In this document: piece by piece, positions 2,503 to 14,847 of the stretch | Layout: every line of letters starts with the position of its first letter | Position numbering within the stretch: the stretch's first letter is position 1 | Source: Chlorobiota bacterium | Lineage (GTDB): Bacteria > Bacteroidota > Ignavibacteria > OLB7 | Assembly: GCA_016788565.1 (NCBI GenBank) | Contig: JAEUSP010000027.1 | Location: forward strand, 1-35,000 | Length of the DNA: 35,000 nucleotides | Direction of reading: 5' to 3' | Made by a program: the position numbers and the translations under genes | Notes under the pieces: generated by a model | What the model saw: only the letters and a program-made list of their open reading frames with translations | Told to the model about the DNA's origin: nothing | Databases searched by the model: none

Positions 2503-5500
2503 CTACGCCGCAAACGCCCGCCGGTACTCCATCCACTCCGGCTGCTCAATCACCTCTTTCAGCTTTGGTGGAGGCGGGTCCACAAATTCCTTGCGAACCG
2601 TTAGCGTGAAGCTCTTGCTGAAGAACAAGATTTCCACTTTTACCGTCACCTTTGCTTCCCCCCACACGCGGTCGGGCGGGCCCATCTCCCACGTTAGGCC
2701 CAGATAGAACTCAACCGAGATGGTGATTAATCCAAGAATGCTTAACTCACCATTGGCGCGAACGTAGCCGGTGAGCGAGACTTTCTCCTGGCCGTTGCTT
2801 ACCTCCATCTTGAAGTAGATGCCGGCCATCACCGAGACCGAACCGCTGGCAACGCCGATGTTCATCGAGGCCGATACGCCGAACTCCAACGCCGCCTCCA
2901 TCAACTCCAGCCCATCCATCCCAAGCTCGATGGCAAAAAAACCGCCGCCGCCAAAAATATAGACCGTCAGACGGAACGGGCTTTCCCGCTCGCAGAAATG
3001 GAAACGGAACCGAACCGGATCGCCGGTGAAGGGGAGCGTGAGCGTTGCCCCCAGGTTGATGTTCATCAGGCTGAAGGCCCCCACCGCAACATCCGGCAAA
3101 CCGATGTTCACCGTCAGAAGCAGGCCGGTGGGTTGGATGTCGATGCTGAACATATCGCCGAATTTCAGGAACTCCTTCAGCTCGTTCACAAACCCCAACG
3201 GCCCGCCGAACTCCACCGCTTTGATCTTCGGATCAACGTTCATTTTCGCGCCGCTGTCGGCACTGAATTTCACCAGGTCGAAGCTGATGGTGATGATCTC
3301 GAACAGGTCAATCGCGAAATTTTTCAGATAGGCGTTCACCGCAAAGCTGGGAGCTTTTCCGGTAAGCGGAACGGTGGTGATTGCCGTCAGCGAGAAGGTG
3401 TCCTTCTTGTCCCCTTTCACCAAAAATGGCCCAAACGAATCCACCTCAGGGTCCCACTTGAAGATGATCTGAATCTCCTTCGGAATCCGGTTGATTGCTT
3501 CCTCGGCAGCGTCGGCGGCCTTCGATGCCGCGTCAATCGCCGATTCGGCTTCGTAAATAATCTGCGAGAGGAACGCCGGAACGGGGGATTTGGGGAGCGC
3601 GGCCAGCAGTTCGGAAGTAGCCTGTTTGCCGGCTTTCACTAACTCATCTTCCAGCGTGTTCTTCAGCGTGTCCATGCTGAGGTCGAATCCGGTGACGGCT
3701 TTCACGATGTCCATCAGGGAGATTCCGCCAAGCAGATCAACATCCAGCCCTGCAAAAAACTGAGCCGGATCGAACGCCCCTTTTGCCATCGAAGCAAGGT
3801 CGCCACTAACCGGGCCGGCCAGCCGCGAAAGCCCACTGATGTTCATATTGGGCGCGGCCAAACCGCCAACTTTTTCGGTGCCAGCACCCGCGCCGCCAAA
3901 CACCATTCCCACCACCGATTTCAGTTTTGCAAACACTTGCCCGCTGTTCCCGTTCGGATCGCCAGCCGCGCCGCTGAAGCCGTTCTGGATGTAGGTTTCG
4001 GGATACTCAATCGCGACCGCGCCGCCAAGCCCAGCAATCGCTTTCACCGACTCCATCTCCACCTCCGATTCCTGCATCACGGGGTAGAATCGGGGCTGGT
4101 CGTTCTGCTGAAGCGAGAGCTGCGAAAGCTCCGAGGCCGGCGGAACAAACGCCGTGAAGGTGAGCGTCTGGACGGTGAAAGCGGTGTCGCCCGATTTTTT
4201 TGCTGCGGCAAACGCAATGGTTTGCCCGCGCATCTGGCGGCGGCTTCGGTCGGGTTTGTTTCCCAGATTTAGCCGGGCAGCATCAATGGTTGAAAAGTCG
4301 TAGGCAACGGAGTTCTCGATGAAGATTGCTGGGGTTGAGAACTCGATATTTCTTCCTTCCCAATCGGTGCCGATAAGGTGAAACAGGAACGGAGTTGCCG
4401 CCCCGGAAGCTGGTTTCACATTGGGCCAGAACGCCGATTGCCCTTTGTTCGCGCCGCCAACAACCACAGCATCGTTGCTCGGTTCATCAAGGTTTGGCGT
4501 TACCAGCGTGGTGATGCGGAGCTGGCGGAAGGGGAAGTTGCGCGCGTCGTTTTTTTGGCCGAATGCTGGATACTCTTTTTCCGGCTGGCGAACCACGATG
4601 TACATCCGCTGGCGCAGGTAGGCGGTCATGTAGCCGCCGGTTTTGTGGAACTTCCGTTCGGTGACTTTTATCAGGCTTGCGCGGTGGCCAAACGGAAACA
4701 GGAAGCCTTTATACACCACCCGAACGTAGTGGTCGCGCCCCATGGTTGCGCGGTGCCGCCATTCCTCCACCGAAAGCGGCGGGTTGGCGATTGGCACATC
4801 CCACCCGCCACGAACGTTCATCCACGCCCCCAGCGAACTCAGCATCAGCCGGTCTACACGGACCACGCGCTCATCGGTGTCGGCAAGGGTGAAGTCGCTG
4901 GTGAGCTTCACTAACTCATCACGGTCGAACGCATCCAGCGACATCCGGAAAGGGTTGCGGATGGAGTTCTCGATGCTGACGGGATCGCTGGGATTGTAGT
5001 GGGGGGCGTGGCCCCCTTTCACGTAATCGGGCGACCAGACGGCGCGGACGGTGCGGTAGTAATCGGAGTCCTCATCCACCCAAGATTTGGTTTTGCTGGA
5101 ACGCATCACCCCAAGCCGTGTGTGCCACAGCTCGGTGCGTTCGCTGCTGCTGTTTGTTGTTGGGTTGGTGGTGGGAAGCGTCACCGGACCTTTCAGGTGC
5201 GCCCAGCCGCCAAAGCGGTTCGGAGCAAGGATCAGCCGGTAGGGCGTTTCCAACGCCGTCTCGGTTGGCAGCGGCTCGCGGATGCCAAAAAACTGTGCAA
5301 TCCCTGCCGACCAGTTCAATCCCAAATCGGTGCTGAGATAGCCAAAGAACTCATCCTCGCTGCTCCCCCCTTTCTTCTTTCGGGCTTTTGGTTTTTGGGC
5401 AGTTGTTGCGGCGGCTTGCTGGGCTTTCTCGGTGTTCAGCCCGCCCGTTTTTGCTATTTCGGCGGCCACTTTCTGCTGCATCCCTTCATCAATCTGGACC

Positions 5501-7503
5501 TCGGCATTCAGCTTCTTTTTCACGCTGGTGACGTTGGCCGATTTGGCCGCACGTGCCTTCCCCTTGTAGCCTGCCAGATCAACATCTTTGGCGGTGACGA
5601 CTTTGTCGCCCAAGCTCCCCCAACCCACCAGCACTTGCGGCGGCGGCGGTGGTGGGGGAAGCGCCACGCTGGGGAGGCTTGGTTCCAGCTTGGACCAATC
5701 CAGCAACGCATCCAGAGTGTAGGGGATTGCGGTGATCTCCTTCGGGATCAGGAAGGCAAGGCGGCTGGGGCCGGCAATGCGTGCTTTCACCGGAGGGGCG
5801 GTGGGCGTTTCGCCGCTGGCGGTTGGCGGGTAGCCAGCATCGCCCGGGCCGATTGGGCTTCCGTCGCTTTTTTTTGCGGGGGCGTAGCTCTCCTCGTTCG
5901 AGGTCTCGAAGAACGCCTGTTCGGCAATGTTTTGCGGCGGGAAATGGATTACCAGATACGCGGATTTGTCACCGTCGCGCACCAGAAAATTTCCCGACCC
6001 TTCGCGGTATTGCAGTGCAAGATTAACGAACTGGAACCGGAGCACCAGCAAATCCTTTGGCCGCACAACCGAGACGGTGAGGTCCGCCGGAAATGGGGTG
6101 GGGTTTGTTGGCTGGACCTTGTCGCCATCGGGTGTTCCGGGGGGAAGCATCTTGAATTTATCAGCCTCCTTCGCTGCATCCTTTGCCGCCCCTGCGCCGA
6201 TGGTGATATCGCTGCCGGGCTTGGTGATGATTGGCGATTTCGGGATCACAACGGTGGTGTCGGGCATCAGGTTCAGCCGCGCACCTTCGGGAAGGAAGGA
6301 GGGTTCGGTAATCCCCCCCGGCATTGGCGCGTGAAGCCGCCGAAGCGCGGGCGCAAGCTCAACCCGCTCAATCCCCCCGTTGATTGCGGTGATCTCCAAC
6401 GGCGAAAGATGTTCGGCATCGGCAATCTCAAGGCTGATGCCCTCGGTGTGGAGCCAGGTTGGAGTTTGCGGGTAGCGGCCAATCACTGCTTGGTGATGAT
6501 TTCCATCCGGCCCAACCGCCGCTGCGTAGGCTGCCGAACGAAGTGGAAGTTGGAACGGATTGCCGTCGCGGTCCAGGCCGTAGCCGGTGGCAACCGCCAG
6601 CGATGGAGCATCGCCAAGATGCTCGGCAAGGATTGCGTGGCGTGTGTTGCGGTTGCGGCTTTCGCCGGTCTCAAGGGTGATGCGGTCGAAGGTGTTGTTG
6701 GCGGCGGCGTTCCAGCCAAGCCCTGCGGCAAGGGTTGGCAGGAAAGCCCAGGTTTGTTCGCCACGTTCCAGCACAATGCTGGTGCGGCGCGCAACGGGTT
6801 CTTCAAACAGGCTGGCGGCGTTTGGCTGCATCAGCCTCAGCGTCAGCGCGTCGGCCGTAGCGTCGCCATCAAAGTTGTTGATGGTAGCGATTTCCTTTCC
6901 GTCAATCACAAGGCTCCAATCGGTGGCAAATGCTGCGTGGGCTTCCCCGCGAAGGGTCAGCGCGGCATCGGCAACGGTTTCCCCGGCAAACCGCACGCGC
7001 GATTCGGCACGGCTCATCCCAATCAGCCAGCGTTCAAAAGGGAAATCGCAGTGGAAATTGCCAAGCTCCATCTGCAGCGTGGCGCGGCATCCCATCAGCC
7101 CGCGGCGGATCGTGAGGTGAAGATTGGCGGGGAGGGTTGTTCCCGGGAACAGCGCGCCACGCAGTTGCACGGTGATTGCAGCATCGGTGCGGGTCACGGC
7201 AAGTTGTGGGCTTCCCCCAAACCGCCGCGTGTTGATCTCCCAGCGGACCTTCCCCCCCAGAAAAAACGCCACCCGTTTTCGGTCGCCGGCCATCTCCAAA
7301 TTTCCTAGGAGTGAAGGAGCAACCGCACCGGCTGCTGGCGCGATTCCCAGCGCGGCAAGGCCGGCCATTTTCACCACTTGCCGCCGTGTAACTGCCGGCC
7401 CGCCGGGGCGAAGCAATGACGACTCGGTGACGCTTGGGCTACTGCCTTGCAAGGGGCCGCGTGCTGTGCGGATTGTGCGGAGATTCAGCCGGGTCGGTCT
7501 CAT
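2503..7503 (-). CDS. Giant Tat-exported protein of unknown function
   Basis: From the chosen ATG at 7503 the product is 1,666 residues. Earlier in-frame starts exist at 7563 (ATG) and 7587 (TTG). Near the N-terminus a twin-arginine motif, TRRQVVK (about residues 39-45), is followed by an Ala/Gly-rich hydrophobic stretch to about residue 64, as in a Tat signal peptide. Next come a beta-rich region, a seven-proline run near residue 617, a Lys/Ala-rich linker near 680-710, and a Trp/Arg-rich block (about 790-960) including RHRATMGRDHYVRVV. An Ala-rich helical stretch lies near 1325, and a Gly-rich, strand-like, non-polar C-terminal region spans about 1500-1640. I cannot assign a known family. 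It is an isolated gene with no obvious partner. A long open frame on the opposite strand (4999-7308) is a codon-bias shadow. No frameshift is visible across 5 kb, so it is a maintained gene. Confidence 0.85.
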   Translation of the reverse strand: MRPTRLNLRTIRTARGPLQGSSPSVTESSLLRPGGPAVTRRQVVKMAGLAALGIAPAAGAVAPSLLGNLEMAGDRKRVAFFLGGKVRWEINTRRFGGSPQLAVTRTDAAITVQLRGALFPGTTLPANLHLTIRRGLMGCRATLQMELGNFHCDFPFERWLIGMSRAESRVRFAGETVADAALTLRGEAHAAFATDWSLVIDGKEIATINNFDGDATADALTLRLMQPNAASLFEEPVARRTSIVLERGEQTWAFLPTLAAGLGWNAAANNTFDRITLETGESRNRNTRHAILAEHLGDAPSLAVATGYGLDRDGNPFQLPLRSAAYAAAVGPDGNHHQAVIGRYPQTPTWLHTEGISLEIADAEHLSPLEITAINGGIERVELAPALRRLHAPMPGGITEPSFLPEGARLNLMPDTTVVIPKSPIITKPGSDITIGAGAAKDAAKEADKFKMLPPGTPDGDKVQPTNPTPFPADLTVSVVRPKDLLVLRFQFVNLALQYREGSGNFLVRDGDKSAYLVIHFPPQNIAEQAFFETSNEESYAPAKKSDGSPIGPGDAGYPPTASGETPTAPPVKARIAGPSRLAFLIPKEITAIPYTLDALLDWSKLEPSLPSVALPPPPPPPQVLVGWGSLGDKVVTAKDVDLAGYKGKARAAKSANVTSVKKKLNAEVQIDEGMQQKVAAEIAKTGGLNTEKAQQAAATTAQKPKARKKKGGSSEDEFFGYLSTDLGLNWSAGIAQFFGIREPLPTETALETPYRLILAPNRFGGWAHLKGPVTLPTTNPTTNSSSERTELWHTRLGVMRSSKTKSWVDEDSDYYRTVRAVWSPDYVKGGHAPHYNPSDPVSIENSIRNPFRMSLDAFDRDELVKLTSDFTLADTDERVVRVDRLMLSSLGAWMNVRGGWDVPIANPPLSVEEWRHRATMGRDHYVRVVYKGFLFPFGHRASLIKVTERKFHKTGGYMTAYLRQRMYIVVRQPEKEYPAFGQKNDARNFPFRQLRITTLVTPNLDEPSNDAVVVGGANKGQSAFWPNVKPASGAATPFLFHLIGTDWEGRNIEFSTPAIFIENSVAYDFSTIDAARLNLGNKPDRSRRQMRGQTIAFAAAKKSGDTAFTVQTLTFTAFVPPASELSQLSLQQNDQPRFYPVMQESEVEMESVKAIAGLGGAVAIEYPETYIQNGFSGAAGDPNGNSGQVFAKLKSVVGMVFGGAGAGTEKVGGLAAPNMNISGLSRLAGPVSGDLASMAKGAFDPAQFFAGLDVDLLGGISLMDIVKAVTGFDLSMDTLKNTLEDELVKAGKQATSELLAALPKSPVPAFLSQIIYEAESAIDAASKAADAAEEAINRIPKEIQIIFKWDPEVDSFGPFLVKGDKKDTFSLTAITTVPLTGKAPSFAVNAYLKNFAIDLFEIITISFDLVKFSADSGAKMNVDPKIKAVEFGGPLGFVNELKEFLKFGDMFSIDIQPTGLLLTVNIGLPDVAVGAFSLMNINLGATLTLPFTGDPVRFRFHFCERESPFRLTVYIFGGGGFFAIELGMDGLELMEAALEFGVSASMNIGVASGSVSVMAGIYFKMEVSNGQEKVSLTGYVRANGELSILGLITISVEFYLGLTWEMGPPDRVWGEAKVTVKVEILFFSKSFTLTVRKEFVDPPPPKLKEVIEQPEWMEYRRAFAA

Positions 7504-7654
7504 TGGCGTTGCGGGAAATTGTGCGTCGGTGCTTGTGGAAGTTGGTTGCAGCAGTAAGAACATCCATCCAATCTGAAATGTTCCCAACAGAACCAGATCG
7601 CTTCCGTGCGGAATCTACTGCAATGCTGGGGGATGCCAAAGAGGGAAAGTGGTG

Positions 7655-10192: not shown

Positions 10193-12487
10193 TCAGCTCC
10201 CCTCTTCGCCGCCAAACAGCGTCCAGCGCAACCCGGCAAAAAACTCACGTCCTTCTATCGGTCCCCACACTATGCTTCCATCCACTGCACGGTTGCTGGT
10301 TTCGAAGGCAAGCGGCATGGTTCGTTCTTGCTGCTGATCCAGCAGGTTCATGGCTCCGGCATAGATCGCCAGTTTCCCAAAGGCTTTTTCAACGCGAATG
10401 TTCAGCATGGTGTAGGCTGGCGATTCGGCAAGGTTGCTCGGGTTGGACGGAAGCAGTTGCGCGCCAATCCAGCTTCCCCATGCTTCGGCAGTGATCCCTT
10501 GCTCGTGATCTTCGTACATCACCGAAGCGTCAAGGTTGGCGCGTGGCGCAAGGGGAAGTTGTTGGTAGCTTCCTGCTGCATCCTGCATTGCGTAGCGGAT
10601 CAGCGCAAGCCCTACCGACCCGCTTAGATGCTCGCCAATGTTGGGGCGTATCTGAAGCTCCATTCCCGTTAGCCGTGTGGGGCGGCTGCTGTTTACCATG
10701 AAGAGCGTCCCCGCCGCCAGCGAGTCGGGCTGGGGAATTCCCTTGCCATCAATCGCTGTCCAGTAGGCGTTGAAGTTGGCATCAATCCCGGCGGTTTCGC
10801 CAAGCATGAAGCTGTAGCTGATGTCGTAATTCAGCGTTGTTGATCGCTCGAATCCGAACTCCGTGTTGTTTCGCCAGCGATAAACCCCATCCACCGAAAG
10901 GTGATGCTCATCGAACAACGCTTGCCCTTTGAATCCCCGCCCGGCCATCAGCCGCATGGTCAAGTTTGCGGTGGGCTGGTAGCGTACCGAACCGCGTGGC
11001 GAGATGATGCTTCCGGCTGCCGAGTGGTTGTCCAGCCGAACGCTGCCAAGCAAGCCCACCTGTTCCGACAAGGGGAGTTCATCTTGAAGAATGAGCGAGC
11101 CGACGGAGTAATCGTAGGCAAGGTCGGGGCGTTGTTCCGACTCCATCCGGTCGCTGCGGAACTCACCCCCAACGGTAAGGTTGTTCCCCGCCAACTCCGT
11201 GCGGAACAGGATGTTGCCGAACATCACTTTTTGCTCAAGCTCCGATGCCGTTAACTCACCCGCATCGTGGGTTGCATGAATCCCGCTGGCCATTGCGGCG
11301 ATGCTGAGTTCGGACGTTTCCGTGAAGGAGCGTGCGCCCCGCAGCATCAGGTCGTAGCGGGCAAGGTCCACCGATTCGCGGAATGGTTGCTGGCCGGAAA
11401 ACCCGGCAACGATTCCTTCGCGCGATTCCCCCGCACCGATTGCCGTTAGCGTCAGTTCGGTGGCATCATCGGCCATGATGTTTGCCCGGCCAACGCCGCT
11501 GAATCGGGTGTAGTTGCGGGCAATCGCTTCGCGGTCCAGATCCCCGTGATGTTGATTGAACGCACCGAACGCTGCAATCCCAACATTCCCCGCCATTCCG
11601 GTGTAGCCAACGCCAACGTCGCGCCCTTCCGGCGCGCTTACTCCATCCCCCGCAAGGTTGGCCGTCAGGTTCAGCTCGCTGATTTCGGTGGGTTGCCGCA
11701 GCAGTAAATCCACCACGCCGCTCACCGCGCCGTTGCCGTGCAATCCGCTGGAAGCCCCTTCGGAAATTTTGATCGTCTGCAACGCTCCGGCCGGGATCAG
11801 GCTTAGCCCGTAGAAGGTTGATAGCCCGCTGAAGACCGGCATTCCATCAATCAAGGTTTTCACGTAGGTCGGTTCCAATCCGCGCAGCCGAATGGAGGAA
11901 GAGTTATCAATGGCACAACTGATTCGGGCCGAGGTGCAGGAGCTGTAGCGGCGCAGCACTTCGCCAACGCTTGGGGAAAATGGGGCGTGTTGCTGAACCT
12001 CTTCTTGCAACGACTCCACACGGCAGCAAGCGTCCTCCACCGAGCGTTGCCGGCGTATCCCAGTTACCTGCACCGTTGGCTGCAACGTTTCGGTTTCCTG
12101 AAGTGTGGTGGCCACCAGCGTCATGGTGTCGGCCACGGTGAGGGTTTTGGTGGCGAAGCCGATGGAGCGGATTTCCAGAGTGATGGAGCCAGTGATGGAG
12201 GTTTGCGCCGGGCGTTGCAACGTGAACGTTCCGTCGGCGCGGGTGATTGCCCCTTGCTGCCCGGTGTAGTTGCTATCAACGCCAACAACGCGGATGGTGG
12301 CTCCGCTGATTGGGGTTCCATCCCCAGCCGAACGTATCCGGCCCAACAGCAGTGTGGTTCCCGTGGCGGCGGTTTGCGAAGATTCTGCTGGCGGTGTGGT
12401 TCCGCCGCTTGTGGTGGGCTGTTGGGCGTGCAGTTGCACGCAGGCCAACGCCCACAATGGAAGTGTGAGTCGTAGTCTATTCTTCAT
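10193..12487 (-). CDS. TonB-dependent outer-membrane receptor, probably metal-related
   Basis: A 764-residue protein with a signal peptide ending near residue 21, a carboxypeptidase-regulatory-like beta-sandwich (about 44-125), a TonB plug (about 148-260) and a long beta-strand-rich barrel to the C-terminus. The plug begins with a vicinal Cys pair (C154-C155) and has two further cysteines (C184, C191). Later it reads GLEPTYVKTLIDGMPVFSGL, then ISEGASSGLHGNGAVSG. This layout resembles the CC-motif receptors of Bacteroidota linked to copper or other heavy metals, and the small Cys/His-rich protein encoded 117 bases upstream on the same strand fits that. Transport of a metal or metal chelate across the outer membrane is inferred. 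The start ATG at 12487 gives a textbook signal peptide. Confidence 0.88.
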   Translation of the reverse strand: MKNRLRLTLPLWALACVQLHAQQPTTSGGTTPPAESSQTAATGTTLLLGRIRSAGDGTPISGATIRVVGVDSNYTGQQGAITRADGTFTLQRPAQTSITGSITLEIRSIGFATKTLTVADTMTLVATTLQETETLQPTVQVTGIRRQRSVEDACCRVESLQEEVQQHAPFSPSVGEVLRRYSSCTSARISCAIDNSSSIRLRGLEPTYVKTLIDGMPVFSGLSTFYGLSLIPAGALQTIKISEGASSGLHGNGAVSGVVDLLLRQPTEISELNLTANLAGDGVSAPEGRDVGVGYTGMAGNVGIAAFGAFNQHHGDLDREAIARNYTRFSGVGRANIMADDATELTLTAIGAGESREGIVAGFSGQQPFRESVDLARYDLMLRGARSFTETSELSIAAMASGIHATHDAGELTASELEQKVMFGNILFRTELAGNNLTVGGEFRSDRMESEQRPDLAYDYSVGSLILQDELPLSEQVGLLGSVRLDNHSAAGSIISPRGSVRYQPTANLTMRLMAGRGFKGQALFDEHHLSVDGVYRWRNNTEFGFERSTTLNYDISYSFMLGETAGIDANFNAYWTAIDGKGIPQPDSLAAGTLFMVNSSRPTRLTGMELQIRPNIGEHLSGSVGLALIRYAMQDAAGSYQQLPLAPRANLDASVMYEDHEQGITAEAWGSWIGAQLLPSNPSNLAESPAYTMLNIRVEKAFGKLAIYAGAMNLLDQQQERTMPLAFETSNRAVDGSIVWGPIEGREFFAGLRWTLFGGEEGS

Positions 12488-13401: not shown

Positions 13402-14847
13402 ATGACACCGAAACTACTTCTTGCAGGGGCAATGCTTTGCACCCTGGCAATGGCCGCCACCGCACAAACCCGCGACTCCGTCTGGGCGGTTGGCAGTTCA
13501 CAAAACGAATACGCCTACGCGCTTCAGCCCGCCAGCGACGGTGGGTTTATTGTGGTTGGAACAAAGGGGGGAAGCACCGAAGCCAGCGTGGATTATTGGG
13601 CCGCCCGATTTGATGCCAAGGGGAAGAAAAAATGGGAAAAAACCTACGGCCGCCCCGGCGTTAGCGAAACGATTTGGGGCCTTGAGCCTTCGCTGGATGG
13701 CGGGTGGCTGCTGGCCGGATTTAGTGGCCGCCAGTTCAGCGGCAATGAACACGCCTTGATATACAAAATTGACGACGATGGCAACATCGTCTGGGAAAAA
13801 GACATTGACTACGCCCGCAGCGACCACGCCCACATCGTGCTGGACCGCCCCGAAGGTGGATACTACATGACCGGCCACACCGACTCGAAAGGGGACGAAA
13901 GCGGCGATGTCTGGATGATAAAAATGGATGCCGAACGGAATGTGCTGTGGGAAAAAGTGTTCAGCCTGAACTATGCCGAACACTCCCATGCGGCAAGGCT
14001 AACCGCCGATGGCGGCTGCGTGCTGCTTTGCCACACCTTACTTGGTGGGCTGGAGAAATACTGGGTGTTTAAGGTGGATAGCAACGGGGTGCAGCAATGG
14101 AGCAAAACCCCAACCAGCGGAACCACCCTCCATGATTCCCCCTACTACATTGTGAACACCCGCGAAGGGGGTTTTGCGCTGTTTGGTGGGTCGGGGAATA
14201 ACCAAGGAGGAACCGGATGGATGCTGGTGCTGGACTCCGCCGGGAACACCATTGTTGATAAGCACTACGGAGGGGTCAACGATGATACCTTCATCTGGTC
14301 GGGCCGCCAAACAAGCGATGGTGGCTTTGTGATGTTTGGCCTTACCAGCGGCCAAACCAACGGCGCATACGATGCCTACGTGGCGAAGACCGACGTGGAG
14401 GGGAACGTTCAGTGGGAACAACGATTAGGCGCGGAAGGGAACGATTACGGCTACTGCGGCTACGAGACCCCCGATGGCTTTGTGGTTGCTGGCGCAACTC
14501 TCTCCAACTCACTGTTGGTTGGCGGAGGCCAGGATATGCTGCTGGGAAAAATCTTCCGCGATGGCGGGCCAATCTCGTCGGTGGAAGAAGATGCCCTGGC
14601 GACCGAAGGGCTAAGCGTCTTCCCGAATCCAACCTCTGCAGAGATCACCATTCGCCTGCGCGAACCGAACAGCCTGCATGGTGAGCTTTTAGATGCCGTA
14701 GGCCGCACCGTGGCCGAACTCACCGATGACCTTGCCGACGACGGCTCGGCACGGTTCAGCACCGCCCAGCTTCCTGCCGGCCTCTATTTCGTTCGGATCA
14801 CCACCACTGCTGGCACGGCGGTGAAGGCAGTGCAGGTGGTCCGGTAA
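13402..14847 (+). CDS. Secreted propeller-like protein with type IX sorting domain
   Basis: A 481-residue protein with a signal peptide (about 1-21, ending ATAQ). It has seven repeats of about 52 residues, each with an (D/E)GG-hydrophobic motif, near residues 46, 99, 151, 203, 255, 306 and 357. Seven such units suggest a seven-bladed beta-propeller, though the fold is inferred. Residues about 404-481 form a Por-type C-terminal sorting domain: LSVFPNP near the start, and LPAGLYFVRI and VKAVQVVR near the end. The domain directs export across the outer membrane by the type IX system. Repeats with D-x-D-G-N turns and WEK motifs recall WD-like surface proteins of unknown ligand. It is monocistronic; a repeat follows 8 bases after the stop. 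Confidence 0.88.
   Translation: MTPKLLLAGAMLCTLAMAATAQTRDSVWAVGSSQNEYAYALQPASDGGFIVVGTKGGSTEASVDYWAARFDAKGKKKWEKTYGRPGVSETIWGLEPSLDGGWLLAGFSGRQFSGNEHALIYKIDDDGNIVWEKDIDYARSDHAHIVLDRPEGGYYMTGHTDSKGDESGDVWMIKMDAERNVLWEKVFSLNYAEHSHAARLTADGGCVLLCHTLLGGLEKYWVFKVDSNGVQQWSKTPTSGTTLHDSPYYIVNTREGGFALFGGSGNNQGGTGWMLVLDSAGNTIVDKHYGGVNDDTFIWSGRQTSDGGFVMFGLTSGQTNGAYDAYVAKTDVEGNVQWEQRLGAEGNDYGYCGYETPDGFVVAGATLSNSLLVGGGQDMLLGKIFRDGGPISSVEEDALATEGLSVFPNPTSAEITIRLREPNSLHGELLDAVGRTVAELTDDLADDGSARFSTAQLPAGLYFVRITTTAGTAVKAVQVVR

Follow-up and report, generated by a model that had tools for sequence, protein, structure and literature searches.

A large, isolated gene with an export signal raises the question of whether it stands alone or belongs to a working system, and if so, of what kind. 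We addressed this for a stretch of 35,000 nucleotides of a Chlorobiota bacterium genome (assembly GCA_016788565.1, contig JAEUSP010000027.1, positions 1 to 35,000), hereafter the window.

A giant gene under purifying selection

The gene, termed A, occupies window positions 2503-7503 on the minus strand, from an ATG at 7503 to a stop codon ending at 2503, and has 1,666 codons specifying a 180-kDa protein. Upstream of this ATG the frame is still open as far as a TTG at 7587; ATG 7503 is the likely start because homologues share the same M-x-x-x-x-L-N opening. The ortholog in a sister species is 88% identical and has the same flanks, with an M3 peptidase gene on one side and a divergent gene on the other. 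Between the two orthologs, codon differences at positions 1, 2 and 3 number 150, 97 and 486, with 402 silent and 197 replacement codon differences (dN/dS 0.13). A is thus a real gene under strong purifying selection, and the uninterrupted 5-kb gene of the preliminary description is borne out by its open frame, its ortholog and this ratio.

No match to A was found in Pfam, NCBIfam, PHROGs, PADLOC or PDB sequences. Family and structure-sequence searches with A and with its partner protein B, described below, gave matches that were at chance level or of the coiled-coil kind, and a search of the open-licence literature found no paper on either protein. The same description had ranked A as the strongest candidate in the window for an undescribed system, and such a system is supported: no described family covers A, which forms part of a system that is itself undescribed.

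Relatives of A and its pairing with B

A was also described as an orphan, which proved incorrect. It has a paralogue on contig C90 of the window genome (G000), about 40 full-length relatives across phyla, and an obligate partner encoded on another contig. The A-family profile gave strong matches in 24 of the 391 genomes of the class; shorter matches limited to the helical region, seen in other genomes, are probably due to chance. An earlier sample of the phylum gave a match to A in 14 of 296 genomes. Relatives are also carried by plasmids of Rhizobium, Sinorhizobium, Agrobacterium, Ruegeria, Cupriavidus, Diaphorobacter and Streptomyces, and the rhizobial form, of about 2,300-3,300 residues, was placed in this family by comparing profiles (E 3e-102).

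Of the checks proposed at the outset, profile searches recovered the relatives across phyla and gave no convincing PDB sequence match for the conserved domains. Comparison of gene neighbourhoods revealed a second giant protein, B (about 1,300-1,900 residues). Its gene follows that of A at each A-B locus inspected beyond the window's genus, the two genes often overlapping or lying tens of bases apart. A and B showed no homology in a profile-profile comparison, and B, like A, had no match in the family libraries named above or in PDB sequences. The genomes with A and those with a strong match to B are the same 24 of the 391 in the class, a co-occurrence with a chance probability of ~1e-38 that is nominal given shared ancestry. 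The evolutionary distances of the two proteins are likewise correlated (mirror-tree r 0.90, compared to a maximum of 0.54 in 2,000 permutations). By these genomic comparisons A and B are an obligate pair, and the pair is present in at least three phyla. The plasmids of rhizobia, Cupriavidus, Diaphorobacter and Streptomyces carry it without the linked genes C and D considered below.

Scans of viral contigs found one with A-B (L070:1-15627, from IMG/VR), in which capsid- and terminase-like phage genes lie on one side and the pair on the other; it is probably the edge of a prophage module rather than a phage gene pair, and the phage records searched contained no A-B. In Cupriavidus, the pair has sigma/anti-sigma-like and DUF692-like neighbours, as judged by eye. 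These were rejected as partners and considered unrelated to A-B because they do not recur.

A distant branch comprises giants without a signal that are similar to A in the helical region and the C-terminal domain (E ~1e-30; L061:1-6347, minus strand, and L084:5639-19029, plus strand). In the R. leguminosarum member of this branch the region is divided over two genes, which are followed by one for a 2,128-residue protein and adjoin an S8 peptidase gene; at L084 the A-like protein adjoins other giant proteins.

Export signals and the Tat pathway

The twin-arginine signal attributed to A in the preliminary description is upheld. Near the N-terminus, TRRQVVK (residues 39-45 of a long Tat signal of about residues 1-61; window 7369-7389, minus strand) fits the S/T-R-R-x-hydrophobic motif and is followed by a mildly hydrophobic Ala/Gly stretch. 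The twin arginines are kept in 24 of 25 relatives from the class and recur in all five rhizobial and one of two Streptomyces relatives, and the window genome encodes TatC (G000:C80, E 1e-65). Maximum hydropathy over 14 residues is ~1.3-2.0 for A proteins and ~1.5-3.2, mostly >2, for the linked proteins C and D, whose signals are of the more hydrophobic Sec type. Window A has an A-x-A-like site (AGAVA); a clear A-x-A cleavage site is missing in several relatives. Targeting of A to Tat is, on these features, a well-supported prediction.

No twin-arginine motif and no Sec-like hydrophobic N-terminal segment was present in any B listed. Neither A nor B had a detectable signal in the Burkholderiales, in phylum family f29 or in L070, so that export is not universal and the core activity of A-B is not tied to it. 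The pair of Rhizobium ruizarguesonis TP23 also lacks a signal, but there A is divided between two overlapping frames (L064:15797-20120, plus strand), owing either to a frameshift or to an error in sequencing. Plasmid pC of Sinorhizobium meliloti LMB1 encodes a TatA-like protein of 55 residues directly after the pair (L067:26856-27023, plus strand), a single occurrence. The T9SS C-terminal sorting domain (Por_Secre_tail) is absent from A; elsewhere in the window, a protein with this type IX sorting domain is encoded at 13402-14847 (plus strand) and an ordinary TonB-dependent receptor at 10193-12487 (minus strand). The former suggests that the host is probably Bacteroidota-like.

These features suggest a model in which A and B would fold and bind each other inside the cytoplasm, and the complex would then leave through Tat, with B hitch-hiking on the signal of A. 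Such export of signal-less subunits is an established Tat mechanism (PMC4273604). The proposed A-B complex resembles known hitch-hiker complexes (PaoABC and the hydrogenase-type heterodimers) in that the genes are adjacent, one subunit has a signal and its partner does not, and folded export is deduced from the signal. Unlike these, A and B have no recognised cofactor or enzyme domain and no described family in the libraries searched, and they are giants, with a predicted complex of ~330 to >500 kDa as against a cited 150-kDa range. Specifically, mature A has a mass of 174 kDa and B of 157 kDa (~330 kDa together), and on Sinorhizobium and Ruegeria plasmids A has 331-363 kDa and the summed pair ~520-570 kDa. 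To our knowledge A-B would be the largest Tat cargo. Mature A alone already exceeds the Tat range of 150 kDa given in a review (PMC6708511); the Tat model is therefore demanding, and size is the main objection to it.

The size of B also bears on another explanation for its lack of a signal. B might be a cytoplasmic chaperone or proofreading factor dedicated to A, which hands A to Tat and stays inside; redox Tat substrates have such proofreading chaperones, and both the missing signal and the strict pairing with A are as expected for one. We nevertheless consider this unlikely, for known Tat-specific chaperones are small helical proteins whereas B is a giant, nearly as big as its putative client. 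Furthermore, B is kept where A has no signal (Burkholderiales, L070), so that proofreading of export is not its general role.

Linked proteins C and D

Two further proteins are linked to A-B in this phylum, as in genome G348, which has an intact same-strand cluster in the order C-B-A-D-C. C has a Sec-type signal and a conserved N-terminal region that we interpret as fibronectin-like; in certain genomes it also bears an RCC1 propeller. Scanning C proteins against NCBIfam gave no match; the C profile does, however, match a paralogue in the window genome at 5e-41, and this paralogue weakly matches TIGR02542 (TANFOR; E 0.0076, below the cut-off). C thus appears to be an exported protein that is distantly TANFOR-like. 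D also has a Sec-type signal, and most complete D proteins have an aromatic last residue, the residue type with which outer-membrane barrels end; D accordingly looks like an outer-membrane barrel. The wider barrel-like family to which D belongs is found in 261 of the 391 genomes, with D of A-B genomes scoring much above most others. Genome G612, in which neither A nor B was detected, has a C-D-C cluster (L118:5749-12508, plus strand), so that C-D is possibly also a separate module.

An exported C and a barrel-like D would fit an envelope or surface role, and in this phylum they might dock, receive or display A-B at the outer membrane. The core activity of A-B does not require the surface, since there are pairs without C and D and some without any signal peptide. 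Taken as a whole, the explanation that we prefer, namely that A and B bind in the cytoplasm and are exported via Tat on the signal of A, after which C-D handle the complex at the outer membrane, has in our judgement slightly less than an even chance of being correct. What we infer in it is that B is exported, how C-D act and what the complex finally does; the pairing of A and B comes from the genomic comparisons.

The apparent distant relationship of C to TANFOR proteins invites another reading, in which A-B would be a toxin-like cargo used in antagonism, with C-D as the TANFOR-type module for trafficking it and delivering it to competitors. In Bacteroidetes, TANFOR proteins form the trafficking portion of polymorphic toxins, and the toxin itself can be in an adjacent gene (PMC7073777). 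The apparently TANFOR-like N-terminus and the Sec signal of C would fit this reading, as would the patchy, plasmid-borne occurrence of A-B. Against it, A and B have no TANFOR domain in an NCBIfam scan, no toxin, nuclease or protease domain in Pfam and no PADLOC match, and no small immunity-like gene recurs beside A-B in the loci read. Also unlike such toxins, the C-terminal sequence of A is conserved rather than polymorphic, and A-B is found outside Bacteroidetes without C. A toxin system of this type is therefore distinctly unlikely.

Organization of protein A

The anatomy of A was read from the family alignment; all window coordinates given here are on the minus strand. After the signal, residues 68-400 (6304-7302; alignment A1) form an N-terminal domain that Burkholderiales members, L070 and short Streptomyces members lack and that is thus dispensable to the core. 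The conserved middle domain (residues 471-609; 5677-6093) has the pattern RPxDLLVLxFxFxNL...FPPQNIAEQAFFE, and its residues R481, D484, P523, Q524 and E528 are invariant in 20 sequences. It is followed by a hinge of seven prolines (residues 616-622; 5638-5658), which is not conserved across the family, and by a variable linker (residues 640-735; 5299-5586) that was recognised from its Lys-rich composition (13.8% Lys over residues 620-735) and is gapped in the alignment. The most conserved block is the Trp/Arg-rich core (residues 743-1160; 4024-5277), with 36 invariant columns in 19 sequences and no match in a PDB sequence search. Within it lies the RHRATMGRDHYVRVV motif (residues 916-930; 4714-4758), in which R923, D924 and V927 are invariant, as is W915 just ahead of it.

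The family alignment then gives an Ala/Gly-rich helical spacer (residues 1241-1345; 3469-3783), which is short in window A. In the paralogue, several hundred more residues separate the conserved blocks, and the distance is greater again in the rhizobial members. The conserved C-terminal domain (residues 1346-1640; 2584-3468; alignment A11) has 26 invariant columns, several long stretches in which hydrophobic residues alternate with polar ones, and no convincing PDB sequence match. A conserved tail completes the protein, with the family consensus W-x-x-Y-C-x-A-F-A and the sequence WMEYRRAFAA here (2506-2535). By alignment, A is conserved in the Trp/Arg block and over its last 320 residues, and variable in the Lys-rich linker and the helical stretch. 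The C-terminal domain and the variable helical spacer may together be the part that contacts a membrane or a partner.

Most of the block structure given in the preliminary description is present, namely the polyproline, the Lys-rich linker, the Trp/Arg block with its motif, the Ala/Gly-rich helical stretch and the Gly/Phe-rich C-terminus. A strand-rich N-terminal domain is seen only in a low-confidence model, in which pLDDT reaches 60-70 only at about residues 68-147. Structure prediction in segments by AlphaFold2 with four input sequences gave a mean pLDDT of 28.6 for residues 736-1666 and 37.5 for residues 48-635, and no usable fold.

This organization could also be that of an apolipoprotein- or lipid-transfer-like carrier, in which long strands and a variable amphipathic helical region bind lipid or another hydrophobic ligand, with B closing off or completing the groove. 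Weak apolipoprotein or coiled-coil matches do occur in the helical spacer of longer A members, and the long alternating hydrophobic/polar stretches of the C-terminus are compatible with such a function, apolipoproteins and large lipid transfer proteins likewise having long amphipathic stretches. However, helix matches of the apolipoprotein sort are common for any coiled coil and were not treated as homology, the helical region is nearly missing in Streptomyces L065 and family f29, the conserved domains of A have no significant sequence match to these proteins, and the AlphaFold2 models offer no supporting fold. We therefore regard a lipid carrier as quite improbable.

A dispersed gene set in the window's genus

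If A and B are an obligate pair, where is the partner of window A? Of the two B genes in the window genome, one adjoins the C90 paralogue of A and the other stands alone on contig C47; a C-D pair is on contig C93. Outside the genus, the nearest relative of both window A and the C47 B is the G348 cluster, in which the nearest relatives of the C93 C and D are also found (D clearly, C by full-length match). Among class members, the distances of window A correlate more closely with those of the C47 B (r 0.83) than with those of the C90 B (0.55). Window A is thus one piece of a dispersed gene set that lies at three places in this genus: A in the window, B at G000:C47 and C-D at G000:C93. The three-way split is common to the window species and its sister species. 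An apparently orphan giant gene can therefore have partner genes at two further loci of its own genome.

Alternatively, window A could be a paralogue in decay, no longer part of any working system, with the C90 pair as the intact one. This is highly improbable: window A does stand apart from B, C and D and has a shorter helical spacer than the paralogue, but it is under strong purifying selection, the B ortholog that belongs to it is retained on C47 and in the sister species too, and the split is identical in both species.

A possible new Tat-exported assembly

Among known systems, extracellular contractile injection systems share with the proposed Tat-exported A-B assembly a large, multi-gene exported character and a patchy spread. 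A contractile injection system was rejected because the window genome has no Baseplate_J (PF04865); also unlike such systems, the A-B clusters read have no recognised phage-tail genes, L070 being the one that adjoins a prophage module.

As to final activity, the candidates are a structural or adhesive surface particle, a carrier of lipid or another hydrophobic ligand, and an antagonistic protein; as a first guess we favour a structural or surface particle. More broadly, A-B may be a mobile, trans-phylum system in which two paired, unrelated giants fold in the cytoplasm and leave together via Tat, with a dedicated outer-membrane pair in this phylum, a reading of the sequence data that we put forward tentatively and judge to have the odds somewhat against it. 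What is new is the A and B families and their pairing; their biochemical activity could be of a known kind.

Should A-B leave via Tat, it would provide a direct test of the size limit for folded export and may bring to light a new particle, either of the envelope or intercellular. Because cultured rhizobia, Cupriavidus metallidurans CH34 and Streptomyces carry the pair on plasmids, laboratory strains are available in which to study it. A plasmid of Agrobacterium vitis carries A-B with B split into two frames (L082:14710-37536), adjoining dpdE-dpdH of a DNA 7-deazaguanine system.
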